A stretch of 56,331 nt of DNA from a virus. Positions within the stretch are counted from its first letter, which is position 1; every line of letters starts with the position of its first letter. Position numbers and translations under genes: made by a program. Shown in pieces: positions 1,399 to 45,131 of this stretch. The notes under the pieces are model-generated. The model made no database searches, was not told where the DNA came from, and saw only the letters and a list, made by a program, of their open reading frames with translations. The DNA is taken from positions 1-56,331 of IMG/VR virus record IMGVR_UViG_3300038426_000018; one strand, given 5' to 3'.

Positions 1399-2248
1399 TG
1401 CGATTAGGCGATTGAGTGTTTTTGTGTTTCTGTCTCTGATTCTGATTTCAAGCGTTTCTTTCGCTCAAAGACAACTACTCAGCCAGAATACAACATTTTA
1501 TGTCCGCGTCGACGGAAGTGATTCCAACGATGGCTCGGCGGACGATCCGGCTGACGCTTTTCTCACTATCCAGCATGCAGTCGACGTGTACCAATCAATA
1601 GACTGCGCGGGATTCGATGTCACAATTCAGGTGGAAGACGGCGCATACACAAAGGGCGTCTTGATAACTTCTCGAGTAGGAGCAGGCAATTTGTACCTTA
1701 CCGGAAATCCAAACACGCCGGCGAATTGTTGGATAGCCGTTACCGGAGGCAATGCTATTTCCATTCAAGGTCACCCGCAAGGCAGCGTCGTGATTCTGAA
1801 TGGCTTCAAACTGAGCACCATTACCAGCGGTGAATGTCTTTTCTCCCAGGGCGGAGCCCAAGTCTTTTATAAAAACATCGAATTCGGATCGTGCGCAGGA
1901 TTTCACTTGAACGCCAACGAAGATGGGATTTTCTATTTAATAGGCCCTTGCAAGATTTCAGGCGGAGCGATAGCGCATATCGTCGCTCAAGTGGGCGGAA
2001 AATGGCTTAATATTGCGGGTCCGGTAACGATAACGATTGTGGGAACGCCCGCTTTTTCTCAAGCCTTTTGCTGGGCTGTCAATTTGGGTTTTGCGGGTAT
2101 AACCAATCAAATAACCTGGAGCGGATCCGCGACCGGAAAGAGATACGAATCCGATAACCTATCGGTTATCACTACATACAGCGCGGGAGCGAATTACTTG
2201 CCGGGCAGCATAGCGGGAACGACAATGTACGGCGGAGTCTACATTTAA
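1391..2248 (+). CDS. Beta-helix fibre paralogue with an N-terminal signal peptide
   Basis: This 285-residue protein is a paralogue of the second half of the preceding fibre. It shares the QLLSQNTTFYVRVDGSDSND opening, the SATGKR motif and an LPG ending. The start at 1391 is chosen because GGAGG lies at 1381-1385. Instead of the collagen-like stalk it begins with a short basic segment, a hydrophobic core (VFVFLSLILISSV) and an SFA/Q junction, a classic signal peptidase I signal. An exported phage fibre domain is unusual. It could be displayed on or secreted from the infected cell, or it may be a host gene fragment captured during recombination. Base composition is lower in G+C than in the genes downstream of 2736. 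Confidence 0.8.
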   Translation: MFSAIRRLSVFVFLSLILISSVSFAQRQLLSQNTTFYVRVDGSDSNDGSADDPADAFLTIQHAVDVYQSIDCAGFDVTIQVEDGAYTKGVLITSRVGAGNLYLTGNPNTPANCWIAVTGGNAISIQGHPQGSVVILNGFKLSTITSGECLFSQGGAQVFYKNIEFGSCAGFHLNANEDGIFYLIGPCKISGGAIAHIVAQVGGKWLNIAGPVTITIVGTPAFSQAFCWAVNLGFAGITNQITWSGSATGKRYESDNLSVITTYSAGANYLPGSIAGTTMYGGVYI

Positions 2249-2273
2249 GGCAATCATTTAAAAGGGGGAAACC

Positions 2274-2645
2274 ATGGCAGCAAACAAACAAATCAGATTC
2301 GGCCCTGTGGCCTTAGGGAATACAGCCGCAAACATCGTCAACCCGGCCCTGGGCGCTCTCACCGGCCCGGTGGGATTCACCATGACGCAGCTTTATGTCA
2401 TCTTGAAGCATATTCGCCTCGTCAACAAAACAGCCGGCGCTATCACCGTCTCTCTGTATGTCGGAGCAACCGCAGGCAGCGCGGCCGGAACTGAATTTCT
2501 TGGGACGGCGCTCTCTATCCCAGCCAATTCATATGTTGATTGGTATGGGGCGCTCAGATTGGATTCCGCAGATTTCCTAAGCGGACTAGCCAGCGCGGCA
2601 ACCTCAATCACTTTCGTAGCTGAGGGCGAAATCGGAATTTCGTAA
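2274..2645 (+). CDS. Small structural-type protein, unknown
   Basis: This 123-residue protein has many alternating Ala, Gly, Thr and Val residues and no transmembrane segment or catalytic motif, as expected for a compact beta-rich phage accessory protein. An AAAAGGGGG-type ribosome binding site precedes the ATG. It follows the two fibre genes and shares their more mixed codon use, so a role as a fibre partner, base or decoration protein is reasonable inference. No function is recognised. Confidence 0.7.
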   Translation: MAANKQIRFGPVALGNTAANIVNPALGALTGPVGFTMTQLYVILKHIRLVNKTAGAITVSLYVGATAGSAAGTEFLGTALSIPANSYVDWYGALRLDSADFLSGLASAATSITFVAEGEIGIS

Positions 2646-2657
2646 CAAAGGAGATTT

Positions 2658-2726
2658 ATGGGACCAGCGGAAATATGGCCTATGATTGCGGGCGGCGCTG
2701 CCGTGGTTTTCGGCGCCGCGAATTGA
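2658..2726 (+). CDS. Putative 22-residue hydrophobic microprotein
   Basis: AAAGGAG (2648-2654) sits just upstream of an ATG that opens a 22-codon frame ending at TGA 2724-2726. The peptide MGPAEIWPMIAGGAAVVFGA plus two residues is short and hydrophobic enough to cross or insert into a membrane. It fills the gap between the fibre accessory gene and the connector gene. The ribosome site is as good as those of neighbouring genes, but the frame is too short for composition to prove coding. Confidence 0.4.
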   Translation: MGPAEIWPMIAGGAAVVFGAAN

Positions 2727-2735
2727 GGTGACGCG

Positions 2736-3593
2736 ATGGCCGTCCAACAGATCAGCGAAAAGATGATCGGAACCGCAGACGGGACGAACGCGGTGTTCAA
2801 CACGTCGAAGGTTCCCAACGCGGACACGATCTCGATTTTCGTCGACGACGCGGCAGTCGCTATGGCTTCGGTGGACCCGAACGACCCGACGAAGTTCACC
2901 CTGGCTTCTCCTCCTGCGTCGGGGCATCGGCCGTTCGCGGTCTACCTGTTTTCCGCAGCGGACGACATCGACTTCGTCACGGTCGCACAGGTCAAAGGCA
3001 TCGGAGAGATAACGACCTCGAAAGACGACGGCCAACTGCAGGATCTCATCACGTATTTCGCGGAGTTTTTCAACGGCCAAACCGGCTGCCGCGTCCACAA
3101 CAGAATCTTGCCCATCACCGATGACCCGCCTTATGACGGACCCGGAGGGCAGAAACTTTTCTTGCGCAATTATCCGATCCGGTCGATTCAGACCGTCATG
3201 GTCAACGGCGTGACTCTCCCGATCGCTGCCGGCAGAACCGACGGCGGGGTGGTGATAACCAATAACGGCCGCGCGATTGCCCTGCGCCCTCCTGCAGGCT
3301 CGATGCAATGGAGTTTCCAATCGTACCCGTTGGGCATCGGGGCCTGGCAGTTCTCCCAGGGAATCGCGAACGTGTACGTGGACTACACCGCAGGCAACGA
3401 CGGGACGCCAGCGGACCTCTCGCAGGCCACGGCCGAGCAGATCGCGATCGAGTACAAGCGGAAAACCTATTTCGACATGAGGTCGAAAGTCCAATCGGTC
3501 GGAGGCGGGAGCGCAACCACGACCTATCGGGACTGGCACCTCACGCCGAAGATGCAGCGAATCTTGATGAAGTATTCGAGGCTCACCGTATGA
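2736..3593 (+). CDS. Head-tail connector (adaptor) protein
   Basis: This 285-residue protein is the likely adaptor that docks beneath the portal and closes the filled head. The middle and end resemble the gp6-like connector family: a helical part (about 85-105), a beta segment FLRNYPIRSIQTVMVNGV, a DYTAG strand, and a terminal helix ending LTPKMQRILMKYSR. The first 80 residues form an extra domain not typical of the shortest family members. Its stop overlaps the next start (ATGA at 3590), and it begins the neck and tail gene run. Confidence 0.75.
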   Translation: MAVQQISEKMIGTADGTNAVFNTSKVPNADTISIFVDDAAVAMASVDPNDPTKFTLASPPASGHRPFAVYLFSAADDIDFVTVAQVKGIGEITTSKDDGQLQDLITYFAEFFNGQTGCRVHNRILPITDDPPYDGPGGQKLFLRNYPIRSIQTVMVNGVTLPIAAGRTDGGVVITNNGRAIALRPPAGSMQWSFQSYPLGIGAWQFSQGIANVYVDYTAGNDGTPADLSQATAEQIAIEYKRKTYFDMRSKVQSVGGGSATTTYRDWHLTPKMQRILMKYSRLTV

Positions 3594-4228
3594 TTTATTC
3601 GTTCTCGAACACCGACCAGATCCTCGTGGCGAAGTTGCGCGGGCGAGGCCCGATCCTGATAAAGGCCCTTTCGAACAAGTTGAACAACCTGGGCCTGCGC
3701 CTGCAATCGAAGATCCGGACCGAGAAGCTGGAAGGAGGAACGCCGCTGCATCGGAGGTCGGGCGAGCTCTCCCGGTCGGTGCAGTTCTTTCCGACCGAGG
3801 CCTCGGGCAGCCGGTTGGAAATGCGCGTCGAGGCGGCCGGGGCGACGGCCTTCTACGGAAGGATTCACGAGCGCGGAGGGCGGGGCACCTACGAGATCGT
3901 TCCGAAGAACAAACAGGCCCTCGCCTTCGGAGCCGGTGAATTCGCCGTGCCTCTGCGCGGGGGCGGGGTCGCTTCGAAGTATCAAATTTTAAAAGCCCTG
4001 TCGAGCCGCACCGAGTCGACCCACGCCTACGGAGCCAGGCTGGCGCGAAGAGCGCCGATGGCCGAATTCGAAGGCGGTCAGATGACTTCTTCCGGAATGG
4101 TTGTCGTGAAGAAAGTCGTCCACCCGCCGCTGCCGGCGAGGCCGTTCATGAAACCCGCGTACGAAGAGATGAGGCCCACGATCGTTTCGGAATTGCAGCA
4201 GACGACGAACGAGGCCCTGAAAGGTTGA
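3590..4228 (+). CDS. HK97 gp10-like neck protein
   Basis: This 212-residue protein has the features of the HK97 gp10-like family of neck or tail-completion proteins: an N-terminal amphipathic helix, a central basic and glycine-rich beta region with HRRSGELSRSV and YGRIHERGG, and the late motif PPLPARPFMKPAYEEMR, which matches the family ending 'P.RPFl.pA'. It starts by ATGA overlap with the connector gene and is followed by the likely terminator, the usual order in siphoviruses. Confidence 0.8.
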   Translation: MIYSFSNTDQILVAKLRGRGPILIKALSNKLNNLGLRLQSKIRTEKLEGGTPLHRRSGELSRSVQFFPTEASGSRLEMRVEAAGATAFYGRIHERGGRGTYEIVPKNKQALAFGAGEFAVPLRGGGVASKYQILKALSSRTESTHAYGARLARRAPMAEFEGGQMTSSGMVVVKKVVHPPLPARPFMKPAYEEMRPTIVSELQQTTNEALKG

Positions 4229-7521: not shown

Positions 7522-10056
7522 ATGGGAAGCACCGACGCCTTACGCATCTTGACCCAGATGGACATCGGCCCGATCCTGTCGGGAATGAACGGGGCCGCCG
7601 ACGCGGTTACTTCTGGAACCGGCAGGATGAACGCCGACTTCCAGAAAATGCAGGCTCAATTCGAGTCGACCGTCGCGGGCATGAGGGCCGAAGCCGAGCA
7701 GCTGCAGGCCCGAGTCGCGGAACTCGAAGCCCAACTCGCGAACGTGGGCAAGCGCGGGATCTCAAGCGCGACCGAAGCCCGACACGCCATGCGGGGCCTG
7801 GGCGAGGAAATAGGCATCCACATGCCTCGCTTCGTTTCCACCTTCCTGTCCTCCTTGGGTCCGGTCGCCACGGTCGCGGCCGCCGCCTTCACCCCGATCG
7901 CGATCGTCGGAATGATTCAAGTCCTCGGGCAGATCCCCGGCGCGATCGAGAAGGGCATCAGTTCGCTGCGCGGTTGGGACGCCGAAGCCAAGAAGACTTT
8001 CGAGGACTCGCAGGCCCACATCATCGCGATGACCCGCGCCATGATCGACGGCGCGAATTCCATCTCCAAGGCGCAGGCCACGGCCGGGAAAAGCGGCCTG
8101 GTCCGAACGGCCGCAGAGAAGGAAGCCCTCGACAAGGAGATCGCCAACTACGAGAAATACCAGACGACCCTGAAGGCCCAACTGTCCGCGTCTGAAAACG
8201 TGAAGAAGTCGATCGAGGTTTCCTGGAAAGGAATCGGCAGCGAAATGCTGCACGCGTTCGAGGGGATGCCCTCGCCGGAATCCTCGAAACTTTTCCTGCG
8301 GCCTTTCATGGGACCCGAACTCGACCAGGCGAAGACGAACATCGGAAACCTGAAGAAGCAGATCGAGGACCTCGACCTCACGTTGGTTCGGCTGCGGGCG
8401 CAGGCCAAGATCGTTCCGATCGAATCCGCAGGAGAGAGCGCCAAGGAGATCGACGAAACCAAGGACGCCAAGATCACCGCCGACCATCAGGCCGCGCTTG
8501 CCAAGGTCGAAACCGACAAAGCCGCGTTGGAAGAAGAACGACGCTTGAACAAAGTGACCCTGGACGAGTACGTCGCCCAGGCGAAAGCGATCGCCGCGCA
8601 GGAACTCGCGATCAACCTGGCGACGATCAACCAGAAACGCGCCCAGGCCCGCGCCGAAGAGAAGACGGTCGGGACTCCTGCAGGCCCGAAGATGGAAGCC
8701 CTCCGGGGCGAAGAAGTCGCGGCGCGGGAAACGACGGCCCGCGAGGTTCAGAAGATCGAAACGACGGCTGCGGCCGAGCGGATCACTCTGAACGAAAACG
8801 AAACCAAGGCCCGGATAGAAAACCAGAAGCGGTACCAGCTCGCCGTCGTCGCCGGCGAAGAGGAAGTGATCAAGGAACAGTACGCCGCGCACCAGATTTC
8901 GGCGGCGCAGGAGACGGCCCGGTTGACCGGCGTGGCCGACCAGAGGTTCGGAATCGAGAGGGCCGCGCTCGTGAAGGAAGTCGAGGAAGCGGGGAAGCAG
9001 GGCGAGAAGAAACGGGCGCTGTTGATAACCCTGCTCGGGCAACTGCAGACCCTAGAAGTGGAACACGCGAACTCTGTGCAGGCTATCAAGGCCGAGGGTA
9101 CGCGAAAGGAAATAGCAGACCGTCAGATCGCCGAAGAGATCGCGTTGCGCGACGCCGAGGAAACGGCCGCGATGGAGTTGAAGTACGCACAGTTCGTCGA
9201 CGCGCAGAAACTCAAAAGCCATCAGATCTCGATGAGCCAGTACGCGAAGGATCAGCAGGCCGCGCTCGACAAAAACTTCAACGACATGCGGACCGCCATG
9301 GACAAGTGGATCGCTTTCATGGAAGCCAACAACGAGAAGGGCACGCGGCAATACCAGATGGCCCTGGCGAAGCGAAAGGAACTCTACCAGAAATACATTC
9401 TGGATTCGGAGAAACTGACGGCCCAACTCAACGCGAAAGAGCAGGCGGCCATCCTTCAAATGCAATCGCTGTGGAACGGCGCGTTCACCCAATGGATCAC
9501 GGGGCACGAAACCCTGGCGAAGGCGGTCGTGAAAGCCTGGGACACGATGCTGGTCGGGATCGTCAACAACCTCCTGAAGATGCTCGAACAAATGTTGGTG
9601 AACTACGCCATGCAGAAAGCGGCTTCGAGTAAAAACATCCTGCAGCAGGCCAAGGAAGCGGCCGCGAAAGCCTACAACGCGATGGCGGGCATCCCTTACG
9701 TCGGCCCCGTTCTCGGCGCTGCGGCTGCGGCGGCCGTGTTCGCGGGCGTGATGGCTTTCGGTACGGCGGCGAAAGGCGCGGTGGCTCCCGAGGACATGAT
9801 GATGTTTCAGCACGCGAAGGAAATGACTTTGCCGGCGCACCTGTCCACGGGCGTCGAGGCCATGGTGAAAGCCTACACCTCCGGAGCGGGCGCGGGAGGA
9901 CCGGCGGCCATGCGAGGCCCCGCTCCCACGATCAACTACCAGCCCACGGTGTACGGTGAGAAACAGTGGGCGAAGAAAATGCTTCGTCAGCACTCCGACG
10001 AACTCGGTGCGATCGTCCAACAACTGATGCGCGACGGAAAAGTTCGCGCCTATTGA
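7522..10056 (+). CDS. Tail tape measure protein
   Basis: This 844-residue protein follows the chaperones. The first 90 residues contain heptad-like helices (MNADFQKMQAQFESTVAGMR). A hydrophobic stretch follows near 103-145 (VATVAAAAFTPIAIVGMIQVL), then long Ala/Glu/Lys/Gln-rich coiled coils, and a second Ala/Gly-rich hydrophobic segment late in the protein (GPVLGAAAAAAVFAGVMAFG). This is the usual layout of tape measure proteins, which set tail length, fill the tube lumen and help DNA cross the membrane. With the usual ratio of about 0.15 nm per residue, the tail would be roughly 125 nm long (inference). No lytic domain is evident. Confidence 0.9.
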   Translation: MGSTDALRILTQMDIGPILSGMNGAADAVTSGTGRMNADFQKMQAQFESTVAGMRAEAEQLQARVAELEAQLANVGKRGISSATEARHAMRGLGEEIGIHMPRFVSTFLSSLGPVATVAAAAFTPIAIVGMIQVLGQIPGAIEKGISSLRGWDAEAKKTFEDSQAHIIAMTRAMIDGANSISKAQATAGKSGLVRTAAEKEALDKEIANYEKYQTTLKAQLSASENVKKSIEVSWKGIGSEMLHAFEGMPSPESSKLFLRPFMGPELDQAKTNIGNLKKQIEDLDLTLVRLRAQAKIVPIESAGESAKEIDETKDAKITADHQAALAKVETDKAALEEERRLNKVTLDEYVAQAKAIAAQELAINLATINQKRAQARAEEKTVGTPAGPKMEALRGEEVAARETTAREVQKIETTAAAERITLNENETKARIENQKRYQLAVVAGEEEVIKEQYAAHQISAAQETARLTGVADQRFGIERAALVKEVEEAGKQGEKKRALLITLLGQLQTLEVEHANSVQAIKAEGTRKEIADRQIAEEIALRDAEETAAMELKYAQFVDAQKLKSHQISMSQYAKDQQAALDKNFNDMRTAMDKWIAFMEANNEKGTRQYQMALAKRKELYQKYILDSEKLTAQLNAKEQAAILQMQSLWNGAFTQWITGHETLAKAVVKAWDTMLVGIVNNLLKMLEQMLVNYAMQKAASSKNILQQAKEAAAKAYNAMAGIPYVGPVLGAAAAAAVFAGVMAFGTAAKGAVAPEDMMMFQHAKEMTLPAHLSTGVEAMVKAYTSGAGAGGPAAMRGPAPTINYQPTVYGEKQWAKKMLRQHSDELGAIVQQLMRDGKVRAY

Positions 10057-32054: not shown

Positions 32055-32308
32055 GGCGCACGTTGAAGAACAAGATCTGGCCCTTCGAGACGGCCTGTCA
32101 CATGATCGCGGATTCGCTGCAGGAGTTGCACGCCATGGCCGACGCGATCGGGTTGAAGCGATCGTGGTTCCAAGCCAATGCCGCCCTTCCCCACTACGAT
32201 TTGACGGCGAACAAACGGTACCAGGCCGTCAGGCACGGCGCGGTCGAGATCTCGTTCCAGGAAGTCGCAGACAAAGCGAAAGCGAAAAGGAGGTCCGCGA
32301 ATGAATAG
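32030..32308 (+). CDS. DUF4031 family protein
   Basis: This 92-residue protein matches DUF4031 over its whole length: TYVDPIRRTLKNKIWPF, ACHMIADSLQELHAMADAIG, WFQANAALPHYDLTANKR and a GAVEISF strand. Members are small proteins found in phages and actinobacteria with a conserved Asp, His and Trp set that hints at an enzyme, but no activity is known. It overlaps the DUF5131 gene start by 8 bases. Confidence 0.85.
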   Translation: MATYVDPIRRTLKNKIWPFETACHMIADSLQELHAMADAIGLKRSWFQANAALPHYDLTANKRYQAVRHGAVEISFQEVADKAKAKRRSANE

Positions 32309-33218
32309 TCAAAAGCCTGACGGCATATCGTACGTCGATTACACCTGGAATCCCGTGGTCGGCTGCACGGAGATTTCGAACAAGTGCAAGAATTGTTGGG
32401 CGCGGTCGCAGGCCCACGTTCACTATCGTCAGGAGTTCACCCACTTCGGCGTCGAAGGGGTCCGCTGGAACCAGCGGGCGAAGTTTTTCCCGGAGAGATT
32501 GGACGAACCGAAGAAGGTCAAGAAGCCTTCGCGGATCGCCGTCGCTTTCATGGGCGATCTGTACCACGAGAACGTCGCGCCGATGGCGCAGCGGCTCGTC
32601 TTCTCCTCGATCGACAACACGCCCTGGCACACCTTCTTGATCTGCACGGCGCGGCCGCAGCGGATGTGCGAAGAGATCACGGCCAACAGCATGTTCGCGG
32701 ATTTCAAGGCGCGACCTTATCCGAACGTGTGGCTCATGACGTCCGTCGAGGACCAGGCGAACGCGAACGAGCGAATCCCCTGGCTTCTCAGGACCCCGGC
32801 GCACGTGCGCGGAGTCAGCGCCGAACCCCTGCTCGGGTCGATCGACTTCCACAAGATTAAGATGGGCTGCGGGTGGGATTCGATCTCCTGCGCTTGTTCT
32901 CCCAGGGCCTGCCAACACGCGACCTTGGATTGGATCGTCGCGGGCGGGGAATCAGGCCCCAAGGCGAGGCCCACTCCTCCTGCCTGCTTTCGCGAGATCC
33001 GCGATCAATGCAGCGACGTGGGGATACCCTTCCACTTCAAACAGCACGGCGAATGGATCGGATACGACGACATCGGGGATCTGGCCTATGATCTGCCGGC
33101 GATGAAACCGAAAGTCTATGGTTGGCCGGACGGCCGCTGTTCTTATCGAATCGGCGCCAGCCTGAGCGGGCGCATGTTGGACGGCCGGGAATGGCTCGGC
33201 CTTCCGAGGGTGGCGTGA
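32301..33218 (+). CDS. DUF5131 (phage Gp37/Gp68) family, radical-SAM-like
   Basis: This 305-residue protein follows AAAAGGAGG. The opening TWNPVVGCTEISNKCKNCWA contains Cys22, Cys29 and Cys32, the C-x6-C-x2-C cluster motif of the family. Other signature parts are VAFMGDLYHENV, LICTARPQRM, AEPLLGSID, WIVAGGESGPKARP and FHFKQHGEW. The family resembles radical-SAM proteins such as spore photoproduct lyase and is widespread in phages, with no proven reaction. It lies far from the other radical-SAM gene at 41313, so a shared pathway is only a possibility. Confidence 0.85.
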   Translation: MNSQKPDGISYVDYTWNPVVGCTEISNKCKNCWARSQAHVHYRQEFTHFGVEGVRWNQRAKFFPERLDEPKKVKKPSRIAVAFMGDLYHENVAPMAQRLVFSSIDNTPWHTFLICTARPQRMCEEITANSMFADFKARPYPNVWLMTSVEDQANANERIPWLLRTPAHVRGVSAEPLLGSIDFHKIKMGCGWDSISCACSPRACQHATLDWIVAGGESGPKARPTPPACFREIRDQCSDVGIPFHFKQHGEWIGYDDIGDLAYDLPAMKPKVYGWPDGRCSYRIGASLSGRMLDGREWLGLPRVA

Positions 33219-36142: not shown

Positions 36143-36197
36143 AATAGTTTGTCTCTGCGGCTCGTCGCGTTTCATCGAACTGAAAGGAGATTTATAA
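36120..36197 (+). pseudogene. Truncated nucleoside deoxyribosyltransferase-like gene start
   Basis: ATG 36120 sits behind GGAAGGAAA and encodes 25 residues, RPRIVCLCGSSRFIEL followed by KGDL, then stops where the HNH gene starts (TAATG). RIVCLCGS(S/T)RF is the characteristic first strand and loop of phage nucleoside 2-deoxyribosyltransferase/DUF4406-like proteins, normally over 100 residues long. I infer that the HNH gene inserted here and displaced or deleted the remainder. No matching rest is seen after 36898. Confidence 0.6.
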
Positions 36198-36898
36198 TGC
36201 CTTGGCCGGAAGGCACTCCTCATGCGCCTGAAACAATCGTGAAAATGAAAGCAGTCGTTCACAAGCGCGGGTGGCATCATACCGCAGAAGCGAAACAAAA
36301 AATCAAACTGAAACGATTAGAGCGGGAGGCGTCGAAACCTCCGAAAATTAAACCGTCCCCAAAGCCGCATAGTGGTTGGAAGTGGACGGACGAGCAGCGG
36401 CGCAATGCGAGCGAAGCCCATAAAGGTTTGCGTTTTTCTGAATCCGGGCGAGCGAAACTCAGCGCGAGCAGGAAAAGGGCTTGGAGATCTTTATCACCAG
36501 AAGAAAAAGAAAAACACCTCGCAGCCTGGCGCAACAAAAACACGGAGGGATACTTGAAACCTCCGTCAAGAAGAAGGCCGAGCGGGAATTGCAGTAAATG
36601 CGGGGCCTGGCGACAAAGCCTGCACCGTGAGCACATAATCCCGAAATTTAAAGGTGGCAGCGAAGATCCGAGTAACATCCAATACATCTGCGCCAACTGC
36701 CATGAAGACAAAACACGGGAAGATCTACGGGGCATGCCGAGCGCCAACAAGGGAAAAAAGTTCAGTGATGAGCACAAGAAAAAATTAAGAATTGCAGCTA
36801 TTAAAAGGTCAACAGGAAACAAACAACCGTACGAAGGAGTGGCAGATGCGAGAGCTGATGCGGTACCGAACTATTGCCACGAGGATTTATGCAGATGA
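36197..36898 (+). CDS. HNH homing endonuclease with NUMOD3-like repeats
   Basis: This 233-residue protein starts within the overlapping TAATG. Residues 55-95 have NUMOD3-like repeats (WTDEQRRNASEAHKGL and SESGRAKLSASRKRAW). The nuclease core is NCSKCGAWRQSLHREHIIPK, then FKGGSEDPSNIQYICANCHE, with two zinc Cys pairs and the H-E-H catalytic set. Another DNA-binding repeat follows (FSDEHKKKLRIAAIKRST). Lower G+C and its position inside a truncated gene suggest recent mobility. Its last 53 bases overlap the initiator gene. Confidence 0.85.
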   Translation: MPWPEGTPHAPETIVKMKAVVHKRGWHHTAEAKQKIKLKRLEREASKPPKIKPSPKPHSGWKWTDEQRRNASEAHKGLRFSESGRAKLSASRKRAWRSLSPEEKEKHLAAWRNKNTEGYLKPPSRRRPSGNCSKCGAWRQSLHREHIIPKFKGGSEDPSNIQYICANCHEDKTREDLRGMPSANKGKKFSDEHKKKLRIAAIKRSTGNKQPYEGVADARADAVPNYCHEDLCR

Positions 36899-37745
36899 AA
36901 AATTCAGGTCACTTTCGAAACCCGCGCCGAACGGCCAAAGCCTTTTTATCTACCTACTGACCGGGCCTCACACGACGAACCTTCCGGGGCTTTTCTGCAC
37001 CGGAAAAGCGGCGCTCGCCGAAGCGCTGGAATGGAATGCGGAAGGCTTCGACAAAGCCTTTCGGGAAGTCTTCCGGGAAGGGCTTATAAAGGTAGATTTA
37101 AAAGCCCGTTTATGGTGGCTTCCGAATGCGACGAAATACAATCCACCCCAAAGCCCAAATGTAGTTAAATCGTGGCGTAAAGCATTTGATGAACTACCGG
37201 AGTGTCAACTTAAAAATGAAGCGTTTAATAAGTTTAAAGCCTTCCTTGAAGCCTTTAGTGAAGACTTCCGAAAGCCTTTCAGGAAGCCCCTCGACGAGTC
37301 AAAAAATCGCTCAACAGGTCCCTTCGCGAAACAGGAACAGGAACAGGAACAGGAACAGTATAAAGAAACTACTTTTGTCCGGAGCGATGAAAAAGCCATC
37401 GCTTCCGGACCGAACCCGCCGGAGGAGATCTTCACCGAATTACCTCTTAAAGGAAAGAAAACCACCCACGCGGTGACGCGGGCCTACGTCGCGGAAATGA
37501 AACCGCTGTACCCGCGCGTTGACATAGAGGCCGAAACCCTCCGGGCGAAAGGCTGGCTCCTGAACAACCCGGAGCAACAGAAAACCCAAAGAGGCATCAA
37601 GCGATTTCTTGGAGGTTGGTATGACCGAGAACAAAACCGAGGAGCGAGGACGAACGGAGCCGATCAAAGAAACGGTGGCCCGAGTGGAAACGTCAATCCG
37701 ACAGGAGTCCTCCGATTCGACCCGGACAAAGTTCCAAAGGGATAG
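36846..37745 (+). CDS. Winged-helix replication initiator (O/DnaD-like)
   Basis: This 299-residue protein starts at ATG 36846 behind GAAGGAG. TRIYADEKFRSLSKPAPNGQ, LFIYLLTGPHTTNLPGLF and KAALAEALEWNAEGFDKAF form the winged-helix domain typical of phage replisome organisers. LWWLPNATKYNPPQSPNVVK and ELPECQLK are also family features. A QEQEQEQEQ linker separates a C-terminal part containing RGIKRFLGGWYDREQ, which may contact the helicase loader. It overlaps the loader gene by 125 bases. Confidence 0.8.
   Translation: MRELMRYRTIATRIYADEKFRSLSKPAPNGQSLFIYLLTGPHTTNLPGLFCTGKAALAEALEWNAEGFDKAFREVFREGLIKVDLKARLWWLPNATKYNPPQSPNVVKSWRKAFDELPECQLKNEAFNKFKAFLEAFSEDFRKPFRKPLDESKNRSTGPFAKQEQEQEQEQYKETTFVRSDEKAIASGPNPPEEIFTELPLKGKKTTHAVTRAYVAEMKPLYPRVDIEAETLRAKGWLLNNPEQQKTQRGIKRFLGGWYDREQNRGARTNGADQRNGGPSGNVNPTGVLRFDPDKVPKG
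37053..37360. other. Candidate replication origin inside the initiator gene
   Basis: Four 16-base copies of RAAGCCTTYMNKGAAG occur at 37053-37068, 37236-37251, 37248-37263 and 37271-37286, inside a stretch with lower G+C than the surroundings. A 6-base tandem repeat (GGAACA) lies at about 37332-37360. Lambda keeps its origin iterons inside gene O in the same way. The repeats also encode similar peptide units (KAFxExF), so protein periodicity is an alternative. Confidence 0.35.
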
Positions 37746-38418
37746 CGAAGCCGAATTGATCTTCTGTCCGAAATGCAGCAACACCGGGTGGGTGCCCTTC
37801 GAGGAAACTGGAGGCGTCGTGAAATGCGAGTGCGCGAAAAAACAATTCAGGCAGGACCGCATCCGGGTGATCCTGGAGGAGTGGAAAAAGTATCGCGACG
37901 CGGAACTGGAAACCTTCGCGCCTTACCGGGACGTGCCCGGACAGGCCGACGCGATCCGCGAGTTGCGGCAAAAATCCTACGATAGTTATTTGATCACCGG
38001 AGGGTACAGCAGCGGCAAGACTCACCTGATGATCGCGCAATACCGATTCATCGCGCTCGCCGGCATCAAGTGCGTTCTCCGGAGCGCCAGGGACGCGATC
38101 GAGGAGTTGCGCAAGGCCGACCTGGTGGAACCCGGAGGAGGAGAGCGGTTCGAATCGCAGATCCTCCAAGTGCTGAACGGGGCCGAGAACGGGCACGTGT
38201 TCATCGACGACATCGACAAGGCCCCGGCGCGAACCGGCTTCCGTCAGGAAATGCTGTTCGACCTCTTCGACACGATCATGCGCCGGGAACTCAAACTCAC
38301 CGTCACGAGCAACTATCCGCTGAAGTCGGACGACCCGCGCCTGCAGGACCTCCGCGGTATTTTGGGCGAGTCGGTCGCCGCGCGGATACATCGGATCTGC
38401 AAGGAGATCAAACTATGA
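37621..38418 (+). CDS. DnaC-like helicase loader ATPase
   Basis: This 265-residue protein starts at ATG 37621 behind TTGGAGG. A zinc-binding start (FCPKCSNTGWV ... KCECAKKQ, about 47-70) is followed by the AAA+ domain: Walker A GGYSSGKTHL near 126, Walker B HVFIDDIDKA near 192, and sensor segment LTVTSNYPL. This matches DnaC/IstB-type loaders that place the replicative helicase at the origin. No helicase gene is seen, so the host DnaB is the likely client. Its first 125 bases overlap the initiator gene. Confidence 0.85.
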   Translation: MTENKTEERGRTEPIKETVARVETSIRQESSDSTRTKFQRDSEAELIFCPKCSNTGWVPFEETGGVVKCECAKKQFRQDRIRVILEEWKKYRDAELETFAPYRDVPGQADAIRELRQKSYDSYLITGGYSSGKTHLMIAQYRFIALAGIKCVLRSARDAIEELRKADLVEPGGGERFESQILQVLNGAENGHVFIDDIDKAPARTGFRQEMLFDLFDTIMRRELKLTVTSNYPLKSDDPRLQDLRGILGESVAARIHRICKEIKL

Positions 38419-38636
38419 GCGAATCGAACGAAGGGGCAGCCGCGAAGCGGCTGCGCTGCGAGAAGTTTTTAAGCGAGATCGAAGAATGCGGCAACACCTT
38501 GGAGCGGGGCCTCACCCGCAAAGAAGCGATCGGGAGACTGCAGGCTCTGGAAAAAGTTTTTGGAGATTTCATCGCGTGGTTGGAACAACTGGACGATGGA
38601 GATTGGGAAATTTTGAGGAGCAAGAAAATTTTGTAA
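38415..38636 (+). CDS. 73-residue helical protein, unknown
   Basis: Starts by ATGA overlap with the loader behind AAGGAG. It is two or three helices: AKRLRCEKFLSEIEECGNTL, RKEAIGRLQALEKVFGDFIA and a short acidic end. Coupling to the loader suggests a replication or early role. No known motif. Confidence 0.65.
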   Translation: MSESNEGAAAKRLRCEKFLSEIEECGNTLERGLTRKEAIGRLQALEKVFGDFIAWLEQLDDGDWEILRSKKIL

Positions 38637-38645
38637 GGAGGAGTC

Positions 38646-38993
38646 ATGCGCTTCGACGATTCACCCGATCTTTTCGGGTGCGGCCACGGCGTCAGCACCG
38701 TGGGGCAAACAACGTGCGAGTTCTGCGGGACCACTTACCACAAAGACAACGAAGACGGAAAGGGAAACGTGATTGATCAATACGCAGATCCTATCGGAGA
38801 AACTCACTTCGCCGGCAAGCTGGTCTGCGATTGTTGTTGGGAAGCGATCGAGGCCGAGGTGCTTCGCCGCATGCCCGACATTCTGCGCTGGTACGCCAAG
38901 ATCCTGCAGGCCCGACGGACGAAGCTGGAAGGCGCGGAGGACCTGATGAGGGAGATTTACAAAACCGTGAAAGGAATGACCACAGCGCAATGA
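38646..38993 (+). CDS. 115-residue zinc-binding protein, unknown
   Basis: TAAGGAGGAG precedes ATG 38646. GCGHGVSTVGQTTCEFCGTT and KLVCDCCWEAIEAEVL supply two Cys pairs plus a Cys-His start, a probable treble-clef or ribbon. The second half is helical (RRMPDILRWYAKILQARRTK). It resembles zinc proteins common in phage early regions but I cannot name the family. Confidence 0.65.
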   Translation: MRFDDSPDLFGCGHGVSTVGQTTCEFCGTTYHKDNEDGKGNVIDQYADPIGETHFAGKLVCDCCWEAIEAEVLRRMPDILRWYAKILQARRTKLEGAEDLMREIYKTVKGMTTAQ

Positions 38994-39009
38994 CGCGAAG
39001 GAGGTTTCT

Positions 39010-39831: not shown

Positions 39832-40034
39832 AAGCTTGGCGAAAAGTCATCCGCGCGGAACTGTACGCGAACAAATGTTGCCCGATAAGTGCGCGGGGAA
39901 CCTTCAAATTTACGCTGGAATGCGGTCATATCGCCTTCGCAAAAGCCAGCGGCGGCATTCCGGCGAAGAAGGTTTGCCGCGACTGCCAAACCATCGAAAA
40001 CGTCTGCAAACGCCTGCATCCCTGCGGGTCTTGA
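39828..40034 (+). CDS. 68-residue zinc-type small protein
   Basis: GTG 39828 overlaps the previous stop behind AGAGGAGG. WRKVIRAELYANKCCPISAR, FTLECGHIAFAKASG and VCRDCQ form a Cys/His pattern like small phage zinc proteins that begin 'W..V..AE...C'. It ends in LHPCGS. No function known. Confidence 0.65.
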   Translation: MKAWRKVIRAELYANKCCPISARGTFKFTLECGHIAFAKASGGIPAKKVCRDCQTIENVCKRLHPCGS

Positions 40035-40065
40035 CCCGTTTCCCGTGAAACGATGGAGGATAGAA

Positions 40066-40365
40066 GTGAGAAAACATTTTTGCAGTAAGTGCCACTTAGA
40101 GGTTCCTGTTTCAGGTGGATACTGCCGGAAATGCGCCAATGAATATATGAGAAAAGTGCGGAAACAAGGGAAATTCAGGCATGATTCGTCGGAATATAAA
40201 AAAGTTCGCGTGGGCAAAAAGGTAATCGGAAAACATCGCGTAGTTGCAGGCGTCACGAATCCGAAACTCTATGTCCACCATAAAGATCATGACCCCGGAA
40301 ACAATGATTTTGAAAATTTGGAAGTCTTAAAGCCGACGGAACATTACGCCGTCCACCATTCCTGA
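40066..40365 (+). CDS. Small HNH endonuclease
   Basis: This 99-residue protein starts at GTG 40066 behind TGGAGG (another GTG at 40045 is less well placed). A zinc ribbon (FCSKCHLEV ... GGYCRKCANEY) leads into a basic region (VRKQGKFRHDSSEYKK) and a compact HNH motif: LYVHHKDHDPGNNDFENLEV, ending EHYAVHH. Lower G+C than neighbours suggests a mobile endonuclease inserted at the border between replication and packaging regions. Confidence 0.8.
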   Translation: MRKHFCSKCHLEVPVSGGYCRKCANEYMRKVRKQGKFRHDSSEYKKVRVGKKVIGKHRVVAGVTNPKLYVHHKDHDPGNNDFENLEVLKPTEHYAVHHS

Positions 40366-40537: not shown

Positions 40538-41320
40538 GTGACGGAAGGGAACGGGAAGGAACCCGACTCCAAGACGGAACACGAGGGCGCGTTGCGCCCG
40601 GTGAAACTCGTCGACCTGGCGGCCCTGATACCCTTCGAACGCAACGCCCGAATCCACTCTGAAGAACAGATCCAACAAATCATCGCGTCGATAAAAGAAT
40701 TCGGTTGGACGAATCCCATCCTGACGGACGGCGACAAAGGGATCTTGGCAGGCCACGGAAGATTCGAGGCGGCGAAGAGGTTGGGCCTCGGGCAAGTTCC
40801 CTGCATCGACCTCTCGGGCCTGACGCCCGCGCAGAAACGGGCGTACGTGATAGCCGACAACAAGCTGGCCCTGAACGCCGGGTGGGACGAAACCCTTTTG
40901 AAAATGGAACTGATGTCGCTGGAGGACGCCGGTTTCGATTTCAGCGTGACGGGATTCGAGCAGTTCGAAATCAACAACCTCCTCGACACGGCCGCGCAGC
41001 AGCCCGAATCCTTCTGGGGCGGGATGCCGCAGTTCACCTCGAAAGACGGCGCTTGGCGGTCGATCATAATCCACTTTCGAAATCAGGAAGCCCTGGACGA
41101 CTTCGCCCGTTTGATCGGACAAACCGTCAGCCCGAAAGCCCGTTTCCTGTGGCACCCGCCCGAGGAAAAGATCCTCATCGCGAAAAACAAGCGCTACGTC
41201 TCCGACGCTGAAAACCCCGAGGAGACGACAGAGCAGGCGGCCGAAGGTCAGGCCGCGCCCGAAGCAAACCAAGCTGCACGACAGGCAGGCATGCCGGACC
41301 TGGCAAACCTCAATGAATAG
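40538..41320 (+). CDS. ParB-like nuclease-domain protein
   Basis: This 260-residue protein starts at GTG 40538 behind CGGAGGG. Residues 20-110 are the ParB/Srx N-terminal domain: LVDLAALIPFERNARIHSEE, QIIASIKEFGWTNPILTDGD and GHGRFEAAKRLGLGQVPC, followed by KRAYVIADNKLALNAGWD. In many phages this domain leads into a DNA methyltransferase. Here it leads to a small alpha/beta unit (WRSIIIHFRNQEALDDFARL, FLWHPPEEKI) and an acidic tail, with no SAM motif. Next to a glycosyltransferase fusion and the terminase it may guide DNA modification or packaging (inference). Confidence 0.8.
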   Translation: MTEGNGKEPDSKTEHEGALRPVKLVDLAALIPFERNARIHSEEQIQQIIASIKEFGWTNPILTDGDKGILAGHGRFEAAKRLGLGQVPCIDLSGLTPAQKRAYVIADNKLALNAGWDETLLKMELMSLEDAGFDFSVTGFEQFEINNLLDTAAQQPESFWGGMPQFTSKDGAWRSIIIHFRNQEALDDFARLIGQTVSPKARFLWHPPEEKILIAKNKRYVSDAENPEETTEQAAEGQAAPEANQAARQAGMPDLANLNE

Positions 41321-42662
41321 CTTTCTGCCGGCGAACGCCCGAAAAGAGAAGATCGTCAAGCCGCTCGGCGCCACGAGTCCTTGGGTGTGGTCGCTCGAAC
41401 CCACGCACGGCTGCAACCTCCGATGCGGGCACTGCAACTGCAGGCTGGATCCGCTTCCCAAGACGTACGATTTCATGGGCGAGGAAACCTGGCGAAAGGC
41501 TTGGGCCATCATCGCGCGGACGGCCCCGACCTGCCGGGTGGATCTCTGCGTCGGCGGCGAACCGACGTTGAACGAAAGCCTGCCGGACTTCCTGAAGATC
41601 GCCCGGGAGATCTCGCCGCGAACTCAGATCCAGATCACGACGAACGGCACCATGATCGCCTCGGGGCACGTCACGTATAAGCAGCTCCTCGACGCTGGCG
41701 CGAACATCGTCTACACCGACATGTATTCCCCGGCCGAACTCTTTCACCGCTTGGCCGACGAGTCCGGGTATCCTTCGTACGAATACTACAACCCGCCTCC
41801 GCAGGCCCCGAGCCCGTGGACTTATTGGGGTCCGCAGTTGAAGATGATCGTGCTGCAGGAGCAACCGGAGAACTGGCCCGAAACCCGTTTTCGCGCCGGA
41901 CTCCTCGGCACCTGGTACAACGCGGCCGTGATCGACCCGGCGAAGATCCTCGTCCTCGACAAGGTGAAGTATCAGGACGCGTACGAAACATACGACGAGC
42001 TCGGGTACGCGAAAAGCAAAGGCCCCGGAGCCGCCAGGAACTTCGCGTGGGATCACGCGATCGCCGCAGGCCACGATTGGCATTGGGTGATGGACGACAA
42101 CATCCGGCGATTCTACCGATTCGATCAGGAACAGCAGATCCCCGTGGGCGACGGGACGATCTTCCGGGCCATGGAGGATTTCGCGCTGCGGTTCGAGAAC
42201 GTCGCGATGGCGGGCCCTAATTATTTCATGTTCGTGCCGCGCAAAGATCACGTGTGCGTCTTCTCCCTGAACACGCGCATCTATTCCTGCAACCTCATCG
42301 GGAACGAACTGCCCTACCGCTGGCGCGGGCGCTACAACGAGGACACGGATCTGTCTTTGCGGATGCTGAAAGCGGGCTGGTGCACCGTGCAGTTTAATTG
42401 CTTCCTCCAACTCAAGGCCCCGACGCAGACCGTGAAGGGCGGGTGCAACAAAGATTTCTACCAGGTCGAAGGCACGTTGCCGAAATCGCAGATGCTAGTT
42501 CGAATGCACCCGGACGTGACGAAACTCAAGTGGAAGTTCAACCGCTGGCACCACGAGGTCGACTATCGCGTGTTCCGGCACAACCGGCTGCGCTTGAAAC
42601 ACGGCGTCGAGATCCCGAGCGAAGCCGACGACTACGGGATGAGATTGGCGGTGGTGTCGTGA
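41313..42662 (+). CDS. Radical-SAM / TET-associated-type glycosyltransferase fusion
   Basis: This 449-residue protein overlaps the ParB-like gene by 8 bases. Residues 1 to about 206 are radical-SAM-like: THGCNLRCGHC (Cys34, Cys38, Cys41), CVGGEPTLNES and QITTNGTMI. From about 207 it becomes a glycosyltransferase of the TAGT (TET/JBP-associated) type: GPGAARNFAWDHAIAAGHDW, WVMDDNIRRFYRF, RYNEDTDLSLRMLKAGWCTV and a GGCN loop. The radical-SAM part seems to lack its C-terminal half and the TAGT part its first segment. It may take part in DNA base hypermodification, but no TET/JBP or modified-nucleotide synthase is seen. Substrate unknown. Confidence 0.8.
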   Translation: MNSFLPANARKEKIVKPLGATSPWVWSLEPTHGCNLRCGHCNCRLDPLPKTYDFMGEETWRKAWAIIARTAPTCRVDLCVGGEPTLNESLPDFLKIAREISPRTQIQITTNGTMIASGHVTYKQLLDAGANIVYTDMYSPAELFHRLADESGYPSYEYYNPPPQAPSPWTYWGPQLKMIVLQEQPENWPETRFRAGLLGTWYNAAVIDPAKILVLDKVKYQDAYETYDELGYAKSKGPGAARNFAWDHAIAAGHDWHWVMDDNIRRFYRFDQEQQIPVGDGTIFRAMEDFALRFENVAMAGPNYFMFVPRKDHVCVFSLNTRIYSCNLIGNELPYRWRGRYNEDTDLSLRMLKAGWCTVQFNCFLQLKAPTQTVKGGCNKDFYQVEGTLPKSQMLVRMHPDVTKLKWKFNRWHHEVDYRVFRHNRLRLKHGVEIPSEADDYGMRLAVVS

Positions 42663-43354
42663 GCGGCCGAGTCAGCAGCAAGCAACAACTCGAAAGTGAA
42701 GTGCGGCGATCGCAGATCCTCGAACTTCGGTTGAAGGAAAAACTCAACCAGTTCCAAATAGCCGAGCGCATGGGGATCACCCAAAGCGCCGTCAGCAAAA
42801 ACCTGGCGAAGGCGAAAGAGGAATTCCGGCAGTTCCGTTGGGACCTGCTGGACGCGGACCTGGCGTTCGAGGTCGACAAGTGCAACGACATCGAGGTGGA
42901 AGCCCGCAGGGCGCTGCGGGCCGCGTGGCGATCGTGGAAGAAATCCATCGGCGTCGTGAAAGTCACCAGGAAGATCGCGAAGGTGGTCCGGACCCAGGCC
43001 GCCCCGAACAAAGACGGCACGCACCAGGAGCCGCAGGAATCGATGAGGCCCGAGAAGATGGAAACCCGCGAGGAGATCAAGGTCGGGAACGCGGCTTTGA
43101 TGTCCGCGATCCTGAAGGCGATCGAACGCATCGACAACGTCGCGGATCGGCGCTGTCACTTGCTCGGCTTCATCGGCGGCGCCAGATCTGCGGGAGATCA
43201 GCCCCGGAAGAACGACAGGGCGGCCATCCCTGCGGACATGACCAATTCGGACCTCATGAAAGAAGTGTTCGAATTTTTCAACGAATTCGGCTCGCCTAAA
43301 GCACCAGGAGGCGGGAACGGCGACAAGGGCAATGGATCACATGGGCCTAATTAA
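42659..43354 (+). CDS. terS: Small terminase subunit
   Basis: This 231-residue protein starts at GTG 42659, overlapping the previous stop. The N-terminal DNA-binding domain has LKEKLNQFQIAERMGITQSA followed by VSKNLAKAKEEF, a clear helix-turn-helix at about 30-57. A helical oligomerisation part (VDKCNDIEVEARRALRAAWR) and a disordered end follow. It lies directly before the large terminase, which overlaps it by 23 bases. Such subunits choose the packaging start on the genome. Confidence 0.8.
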   Translation: MSGRVSSKQQLESEVRRSQILELRLKEKLNQFQIAERMGITQSAVSKNLAKAKEEFRQFRWDLLDADLAFEVDKCNDIEVEARRALRAAWRSWKKSIGVVKVTRKIAKVVRTQAAPNKDGTHQEPQESMRPEKMETREEIKVGNAALMSAILKAIERIDNVADRRCHLLGFIGGARSAGDQPRKNDRAAIPADMTNSDLMKEVFEFFNEFGSPKAPGGGNGDKGNGSHGPN

Positions 43355-45131
43355 CGCGAATTTGCCGATCGACCAGGTCGACCCGGAACGGTTGAAGCAC
43401 GTCGTCGAGTGCGCGGCCGAGTTTCGCCGGCGCATGCGTTGGCAGAAGGATCACATCGCGTGGTGCCGCGAGCGCCTTCACATGCCGGACATCCCCGGAA
43501 TCGGGCTTCCGATCTGGGAGAAGCAGGACGAAGTTTGGCGCAGCGTGATCGAGCACCGCAAAACCCACTGCAGGTCGGGGCATAAAACCGGCAAGACCCT
43601 CGACGCGGCCATCATCGCCCTGTGGTTCCTCGATTGCTGGCGGCCTTCCCGCGTGGTTTCGACCTCCGCGTCCTGGCCCGACGTGAAAATGAAACTGTGG
43701 GGCCACATCCGCGATCGCTACCGCTCGGGCGGTTCCTGGTTCGGAGTGCCGGTGTCCACCACCGACCTGAAGATCACCGATCGTCATTACGCGACGGGCC
43801 TATCGTGCGACCGGCCGGAAGCCTTCGCGGGACACAACGAGCAGTTCGTGCTGGTGATCATCGACGAGGCCTCGGCTGTCCGTCAGGAACTTTGGGACGC
43901 CGCAGAAGCCGAAGCCACGAAGATCCTGGAAATCGGAAACCCGCTGTTGGCCGAAGGCCCGTTCTATAAGCACGCGTCCTCCTCCGAGTACAACCACATC
44001 CACATTTCCTGTTGGGATCATCCGAACGTGAAGACGGGCGTCGAGATCATTCCAGGAGGGCCGACGCTGGCGTGGTGTCAGGACCGCTTGGAGAATTGGG
44101 GCGAGACGGACCCGCTCTACAGGACTCGAGTCCTGGGAGAGTTCCCGGAGGAGTCGGCCGACAGTTTGTTCCCGATGAGTTTGATCCAAGCCTGCTTCGA
44201 TCGGTGGAAGGAAGTCAAGGACCTGGAACGGGAGCAAGACGCCGAACACGTGCGGGGCCTCGACGTGGCGCGGGCCGGTGGCGACCGCACGGAAGGTTAC
44301 GACAAGGACCGGGTGAAGTTGGGCGACCTCTCGATCGCGCGGTACAAGAAAGTCTTAGAACTGCGGAAAACCGACCACTACAGGACCCGAATGCGGATGG
44401 CCGGGATCTTCGCCGGCGACCCTTGCGACATCACGAACGTGGACGCGGGCGGGGAAGGCTCGGGCCTGGCAGACGAGCTCGCGAACACCACCGTCGAGGG
44501 ATTCGACAAGCCGATGCGGGTCCGCAGGGTCCACTTCGGAGCCAACGCCACCACGTCGGATTATTTCAACGTGCGGGCCGAAATGTACTGGCAACTTTCG
44601 CAGGCCATGAAAGCTGGCGCCGCACTCGAACCGGACGAGCAGCTCCGCGAAGAGTTGATCGTGGTCGGAGGCATGGCGACGTACAAGGAGAAGCAATTCG
44701 AAGGCGTCAAAAAGCTGGTGCGTTTCCTTCGGCCGAAGGAGGAGGTCAAAGAACTATTGGGCCGGTCGTGCGACAAGTCGGACGGCTTGGCCCTGGCGAA
44801 CTACAAACCGGGCGGCCTGGGCCTGCTGGATTTTTACGCGCAGGAAGCCAAGCGGGTTCGTCAACAAGGAGCGGAGCAACAACCGCTGGATCAATCGTTG
44901 GCCGCTGCGCAGATGACCGCCGCGGACGACGATCGGTTCGCGGTCAAGGACAAAAGCGGGGTCGCTCAGAAGTCGAGGCCCGCAGGGAAGGTTTGTCCGG
45001 ACTGCGGCCGAAGCGTTGCGCAGTACGAAGAAACCTTCAAGTGCTTTTCCTGCGGCCGGACTGGTCGCAACAACGAACTCAAATCAGGAGGAAAGAACGA
45101 TGGGAGCACTATCGGAATCCAACCCCATTAG
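43332..45131 (+). CDS. terL: Large terminase subunit with C-terminal zinc ribbon
   Basis: This 599-residue protein has an ATPase with Walker A SGHKTGKT (82-89), Walker B VLVIIDEAS (about 173-181) and a GNPLLAEGPF coupling motif. The RNase H-like nuclease includes RGLDVARAGGDRT (about 304-316), NVDAGGEGSG and SCDKSDGLALANY. After the nuclease, a linker leads to KVCPDCGRSVAQYEETFKC followed by FSCGR at about 560-587, a zinc ribbon not usual in large terminases. It pumps DNA into the prohead and cuts it. Its end overlaps the beta-helix gene by 32 bases. Confidence 0.9.
   Translation: MDHMGLINANLPIDQVDPERLKHVVECAAEFRRRMRWQKDHIAWCRERLHMPDIPGIGLPIWEKQDEVWRSVIEHRKTHCRSGHKTGKTLDAAIIALWFLDCWRPSRVVSTSASWPDVKMKLWGHIRDRYRSGGSWFGVPVSTTDLKITDRHYATGLSCDRPEAFAGHNEQFVLVIIDEASAVRQELWDAAEAEATKILEIGNPLLAEGPFYKHASSSEYNHIHISCWDHPNVKTGVEIIPGGPTLAWCQDRLENWGETDPLYRTRVLGEFPEESADSLFPMSLIQACFDRWKEVKDLEREQDAEHVRGLDVARAGGDRTEGYDKDRVKLGDLSIARYKKVLELRKTDHYRTRMRMAGIFAGDPCDITNVDAGGEGSGLADELANTTVEGFDKPMRVRRVHFGANATTSDYFNVRAEMYWQLSQAMKAGAALEPDEQLREELIVVGGMATYKEKQFEGVKKLVRFLRPKEEVKELLGRSCDKSDGLALANYKPGGLGLLDFYAQEAKRVRQQGAEQQPLDQSLAAAQMTAADDDRFAVKDKSGVAQKSRPAGKVCPDCGRSVAQYEETFKCFSCGRTGRNNELKSGGKNDGSTIGIQPH

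Follow-up and report, generated by a model that had tools for sequence, protein, structure and literature searches.

The TET-associated glycosyltransferase (TAGT) of T6 (PF20691; beta-glucosyl-HMC-alpha-glucosyltransferase, PHROG 842) is reported to transfer a second glucose onto glucosylated hydroxymethylcytosine in DNA (PMC13216743, PMC13390438). The function of solitary TAGTs is described as undefined (PMC13216743), and a 2026 study of phage glucosyltransferases counted, among 753 GT-bearing genomes, 288 with a TAGT and neither an alpha-GT nor a beta-GT (PMC13216743). ParBc proteins have been reported beside carboxymethylcytosine genes (PMC12783734), and phage ParB-like proteins linked to DNA modification are found in PHROG 620. 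BtrN and SpeY, finally, are radical-SAM enzymes of the SPASM-Twitch type.

The window analysed here, a stretch of 56,331 nucleotides from the IMG/VR virus record IMGVR_UViG_3300038426_000018, holds relatives of each of these proteins in adjacent genes. The C-terminal half of one ORF resembles the TAGTs (107 bits, with DDN, NEDTD, and GG); unlike them, it lacks the first ~43 residues, is fused to a radical-SAM part, and lies in a window whose 65 ORFs, from a record that may be incomplete, gave no Pfam match to Tet_JBP (PF12851). The N-terminal half shares the CxxxCxxC core and GGEP with BtrN and SpeY, but is devoid of their whole C-terminal auxiliary-cluster region; intact phage homologues carry six conserved cysteines in this region and are encoded next to a TAGT. 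The ParB-like protein encoded upstream is similar to PHROG 620 proteins in its N-terminal part, and its gene likewise adjoins a presumed DNA-modification enzyme, whereas its C-terminal domain (ParB-C), which has no Pfam or PHROG match and is found upstream of TAGT in nearly all loci examined, is an addition.

40538 to 41320, plus strand: ParB-like protein, 260 amino acids (PHROG 620, E=6e-53)
41313 to 42662, plus strand: fused ORF, truncated radical SAM followed by N-terminally truncated TAGT; 449 amino acids, ATG start, frame open
41313 to 41921, plus strand: radical-SAM moiety, residues 1-203, with Cys34/38/41; SPASM-type C-terminal ~130 residues absent
41914 to 41921, plus strand: presumed deletion joint, from blastn against the separate genes and a view of the sequence
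41922 to 42659, plus strand: TAGT moiety, residues 204-449; first ~43 residues of intact TAGTs missing
43332 to 45131, plus strand: terminase large subunit (PHROG 2, E=2e-30), a neighbour giving genomic context

Architecture and authenticity of the fused gene

The motifs that the initial annotation had read from the fused ORF are all present, and both Pfam domains score above their cut-offs. The N-terminal half contains CxxxCxxC (Cys34/38/41), GGEPTL, and TTNG and matches Radical_SAM (PF04055) at residues 29-148 (profile positions 2-120 of 166; 46.7 bits against a cut-off of 29.5), and thus belongs to the radical-SAM superfamily by score and by CxxxCxxC motif. The cysteines of the C-terminal auxiliary cluster of SPASM/Twitch proteins (PF13186) are missing. 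GPGAARN, MDDN, YNEDTDL, and GGCN mark the other half, which matches PF20691 at residues 212-377 with 106.9 bits (cut-off 27.5). This score is that of a TAGT, but the domain is incomplete: the match covers profile positions 51-205 of 205, positions 1-50 are unmatched, and the beta1 motif YIPSKGR is gone.

When the entire fused protein was used as the query, most matches were stand-alone TAGTs (~290 amino acids when intact), which match from about residue 204 and are mostly 55-68% identical there. Searches with the N-terminal half, and then with an alignment of its relatives, defined a family of ~340-amino-acid proteins in which a Radical_SAM domain is followed by a SPASM match at the C-terminus; the radical-SAM moiety is 62-70% identical to these intact phage genes, and the SPASM match occurs in the intact relatives only. 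Both gaps that had been suspected from the sequence are borne out by comparison with intact relatives: the second half of the radical-SAM enzyme and the first segment of the glycosyltransferase are absent. The domain switch is sharp and falls slightly earlier than the proposed position of about residue 206. In all blastn alignments, homology to stand-alone radical-SAM genes ends at base 41921 (residue 203, ...GTWYN), and homology to stand-alone TAGT genes begins at 41914-41920 in the longest alignments. The protein stays close to the radical-SAM family as far as N203; the stretch after it, AAVID...ILVLD, is equivalent to intact TAGTs from residue 43 on. The two halves are in frame, and the fused ORF begins within the ParB-like gene, sharing its last 8 bp.

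The abruptness of this joint, and nothing else, would favour an assembly chimera in which two real genes were misjoined. We consider this practically excluded, since two further IMG/VR contigs, assembled separately and one of them from a distinguishable strain, have this junction too. IMGVR 3300038451_000085 is 99.98% identical to the window over 17,347 bp, and 3300018020_000126 is 99.7% identical over 5.7 kb, each with the same joint. The latter carries SNPs, has a flank (window 37251-39006) of 97.2% identity, is devoid of ~180 bp that the window has, and is, judged by its sequence, another strain. An exact scan for the joint, which possibly left out the window's own record, returned these two contigs; a further contig (3300017941_000024, L004) starts within the TAGT half.

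Upstream of the ParB-like gene, the window also encodes HNH endonucleases (36149-36898 and 39889-40365; PF01844 and PF13392) and, at 32301-33218, a DUF5131 protein of the phage Gp37/Gp68-like family (PF07505, E=4e-69). Members of this family carry a radical-SAM-like Cys motif, and the protein may be a second such enzyme.

The intact genes in other phages

The initial annotation had suspected that a deletion joined two neighbouring genes, and other phages indeed carry these genes intact, separate, and side by side. The intact radical-SAM family comprises 18 non-redundant IMG/VR groups, with L097/L098, L101/L102, and L104/L105/L108 each counted once and neither fused copies nor the more distant, partial matches (L114-L118) included; a TAGT gene lies on the same strand within ~1.7 kb in 15 of these groups and on the same contig in 17. 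Gene order varies: radical SAM, ParB-C, TAGT in L091, L094, L095, L097, and L099; ParB-C, radical SAM, TAGT in L100 and L101; ParB-C, TAGT, radical SAM in L093, L096, and L106; and radical SAM, second radical SAM, TAGT in L092. Because the neighbours are kept while their order changes, the genes appear to be functionally linked. The distances among the radical-SAM enzymes are correlated with those among the TAGTs (Mantel r=0.73, p=0.003, n=13), which shared genome ancestry could produce as well. Conversely, none of 39 TAGT contigs without a neighbouring radical-SAM gene carried a member of the family anywhere on the contig, these contigs having been gathered by similarity to the TAGT of the window rather than sampled at random.

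The proposed connection with the ParB-like protein is real, given that a homologue of its C-terminal domain directly precedes TAGT in 64 of the 68 loci with enough upstream sequence (median gap 8 bp). In the window, a ParB_N-like part (residues ~22-150; Pfam ParB_N below cut-off) precedes this domain (residues ~157-242, 'GMPQF..IIIHF'), which may be a dedicated partner of TAGT. The domain ('GMPEF...IIxHF...FWYP'; window 40985-41320) is also encountered as a separate protein of ~100 amino acids (L068:7493-7828, L089:6867-7166).

Among cultured phages, tblastn detected no member of the radical-SAM family beyond weak partial matches. A cellular origin of the family was also considered and rejected: a pattern-based scan covering the genomes of ~85,000 prokaryote species gave one clear homologue, on the Desulfosporosinus MAG contig PKWS01000323.1 (L119). 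As this gene sits beside TAGT and ParB-C, the contig probably represents a prophage, or a phage contig that was binned with the MAG. The literature searched contains no description of the intact module. Radical-SAM/SPASM enzyme, ParB-C, and TAGT constitute a conserved and, as far as this literature shows, undescribed phage module, whose intact form has full-length enzymes encoded by co-directional neighbours; the window holds ParB-C and parts of both enzymes.

Several loci have additional genes. In L091 (6817-7998 and following), a separate radical-SAM protein (PHROG 9298) is encoded upstream of the SPASM enzyme, with an FkbM-like methyltransferase frame, judged by eye, between it and ParB. 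Tandem TAGT pairs were noted in L025, L048, and L052, with one diverged copy (27-30% identity) in L025 and L048; in L048 both copies share one open frame.

Origin and fate of the fused copy

The fused ORF is in our view likely to be the remnant of a conserved module of ParB-like protein, radical-SAM/SPASM enzyme, and TAGT, with the functions proposed below, left behind by one in-frame deletion. Both the 3' end of the radical-SAM gene and the first ~43 TAGT codons would have been lost in this event. The order ParB-C, radical SAM, TAGT in L100-L102 fits the ancestor of the window, and if this ancestor was arranged like L100, where the joint corresponds to positions ~7716 and ~8222 (the second inferred from the start of the TAGT match at 8096), the deletion would have spanned ~0.5 kb. 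L201, which has the nearest terminase outside the species (66%), was considered as a pre-fusion state and rejected; its short upstream stretch is without ParB, radical SAM, and TAGT. Its terminase gene (1417-3882) is split at GHKTGK (Walker A) by an in-frame insertion of ~1 kb, possibly an intein.

What was lost can be judged against the intact proteins. The eight intact radical-SAM proteins compared all share six C-terminal cysteines, every one of which falls in a gap column of the fusion, and 10 of 72 TAGT positions conserved at ≥90% are missing. A structure model of the intact TAGT of L005 (pLDDT 90.9, pTM 0.89) has the order beta1 (6-9), alpha1 (18-26), beta2 (31-34), alpha2 (36-43), and beta3 (51-53), so the fusion, which joins at TAGT residue 43, lacks the first two beta-alpha units (beta1-alpha1-beta2-alpha2). 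In other GT-A enzymes these units help hold the nucleotide, and by analogy the lost part may belong to the nucleotide-sugar site. Since one half is without its auxiliary-cluster region and the other without these GT-A units, neither enzyme activity is likely to persist in the fused gene. In the model of the fusion (pTM 0.48), pLDDT is below 50 across residues 185-237 and the joint is unstructured; the underlying alignment is shallower than that of the TAGT model (25 rows against 59), and such low confidence is no proof of misfolding.

A sister phage (L030, 3300038424_000126) has lost a further 870 bp, in frame, between two copies of an 8-bp direct repeat:

41754 to 41761, plus strand: GCCGACGA, first copy, left end of the 870-bp deletion in L030
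42624 to 42631, plus strand: GCCGACGA, second copy, right end of the deletion in L030

What remains in this phage is ~149 residues of the radical-SAM part, to which roughly the last ten of TAGT are attached. The deletion, observed in a single contig, suggests that the fused gene is dispensable.

The initial annotation had envisaged a reduced, possibly new modification module, and the idea that the copy in the window works as such is probably wrong: the SPASM-region cysteines and two beta-alpha units are lost, the joint is unstructured in the model, and the sister phage has deleted most of the gene. Intact genes in close relatives beside a plainly broken copy, which the annotation had named as evidence against its proposal, are largely what was found, although the phages with intact genes are not close. 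Alternatively, the fusion could be a working reduced protein, one half of which has kept a role, either altered in its catalysis or without any, and maybe in concert with the ParB-like protein; a radical-SAM core binding SAM or a cluster, or a TAGT half binding DNA or a partner, would be examples. The frame is open in three assemblies, the start codon overlaps the ParB-like gene, both halves keep their catalytic motifs, and the radical-SAM half is eroded no more than its intact homologues. Invariant positions are changed at 1 of 45 (radical SAM) and 1 of 43 (TAGT), and because nearly all of these residues are kept, the fusion should be either recent or still constrained. Slight erosion, an open frame, and the overlapping start fit a young remnant as well as a retained function. 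However, both halves lack parts that are conserved in intact relatives, the modelled joint has no structure, and most of the ORF is dispensed with in the sister phage. Purifying selection is not measurable, since all known copies of the fusion are nearly identical (two SNPs in all; dN/dS uninformative). We regard a working reduced protein as unlikely, and a non-functional remnant as the most likely state of the fused gene.

Possible function of the intact module

In phages with intact genes, TAGT probably transfers a sugar, by analogy with T6 to a base of the phage DNA. The SPASM enzyme, which among solved proteins is closest by sequence to BtrN, a dehydrogenase acting on an aminocyclitol, would then oxidise or otherwise edit the product of TAGT; this probable tailoring role has family resemblance and co-occurrence as its basis. 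Two observations suggest such editing. First, the enzyme is almost never found without TAGT, whereas TAGT is usually found without the enzyme, and from this one-sided dependence we infer that TAGT acts first and the radical-SAM enzyme second. Second, the closest solved sequence relative, BtrN (E=3e-12 in a profile search, with 7wzv among the weaker matches), is a radical-SAM dehydrogenase of an aminocyclitol. In a fold search with the model of the fusion, the top ranks went to BtrN and to 7wzx, which is described as SpeY, a radical-SAM dehydrogenase of the Twitch type; the match to BtrN and SpeY spans the core domain only. For TAGT, no solved relative was found by sequence, and the fold search with the intact protein returned GT-A enzymes such as COLGALT1 at a TM of only ~0.44. 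Sugar-nucleotide enzymes and FkbM methyltransferases are among the neighbours of TAGTs without a radical-SAM gene, and DNA polymerase, clamp, and UDG-family genes are among those of the radical-SAM/TAGT pair. We tentatively propose that the module might be a new pathway for the hypermodification of phage DNA, with a 'solitary' TAGT handling a sugar or base that is edited by a radical-SAM enzyme; the window carries a reduced, fused copy of the module.

Another order of events is conceivable, in which the radical-SAM enzyme makes the acceptor before TAGT acts, in place of TET/JBP or a hydroxymethylase. As noted initially, TET/JBP is not visible in the window, and it is missing from nearly all phages with the module: Tet_JBP was absent from 24 of 25 radical-SAM-family records and all 44 TAGT records, and the thymidylate-synthase family (PF00303), to which the hydroxymethylase of the T4-type hydroxymethylcytosine pathway belongs, had no match in the ORFs of the window and none in 30 related records, many of the records in both searches being fragments. 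Given these absences, something else would have to make the acceptor. Yet absences from fragmentary records are weak evidence, most sampled TAGT contigs are also without the radical-SAM gene, which therefore is not a general acceptor maker, and the family resembles dehydrogenases that act on sugar-like alcohols. An acceptor-making role hence appears doubtful. The search for a TET/JBP or thymidylate-synthase partner had one exception, a jumbo contig of 305,782 bases (G024/L110) that encodes the radical-SAM family, TAGT, and Tet_JBP; the three genes are not adjacent, and ~185 kb separate TET from the radical-SAM enzyme.

Many radical-SAM/SPASM enzymes mature peptides, and the intact module could modify a peptide or protein instead of DNA, with the small ParB-C protein as a possible substrate. 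A SPASM domain next to a small protein of ~100 amino acids in several loci would agree with this idea. However, ParB-C accompanies TAGT also where the radical-SAM gene is missing and in many cases forms one protein with a ParB_N-like part, the T6 TAGT reportedly acts on cytosine in DNA (PMC13216743, PMC13390438), and the neighbouring genes include those for DNA polymerase, clamp, and UDG-family proteins. A peptide or protein substrate is thus quite improbable.

Returning to the proposed editing of the TAGT product, if the module acts on DNA, the alteration of a glycosylated base by radical-SAM chemistry would add a new kind to the known DNA hypermodifications. The fusion in the window led to a recurring set of partners for a group of solitary TAGTs, namely a virus-associated radical-SAM/SPASM enzyme and ParB-C, and the fused copy itself would provide a natural example of the loss of such a module.
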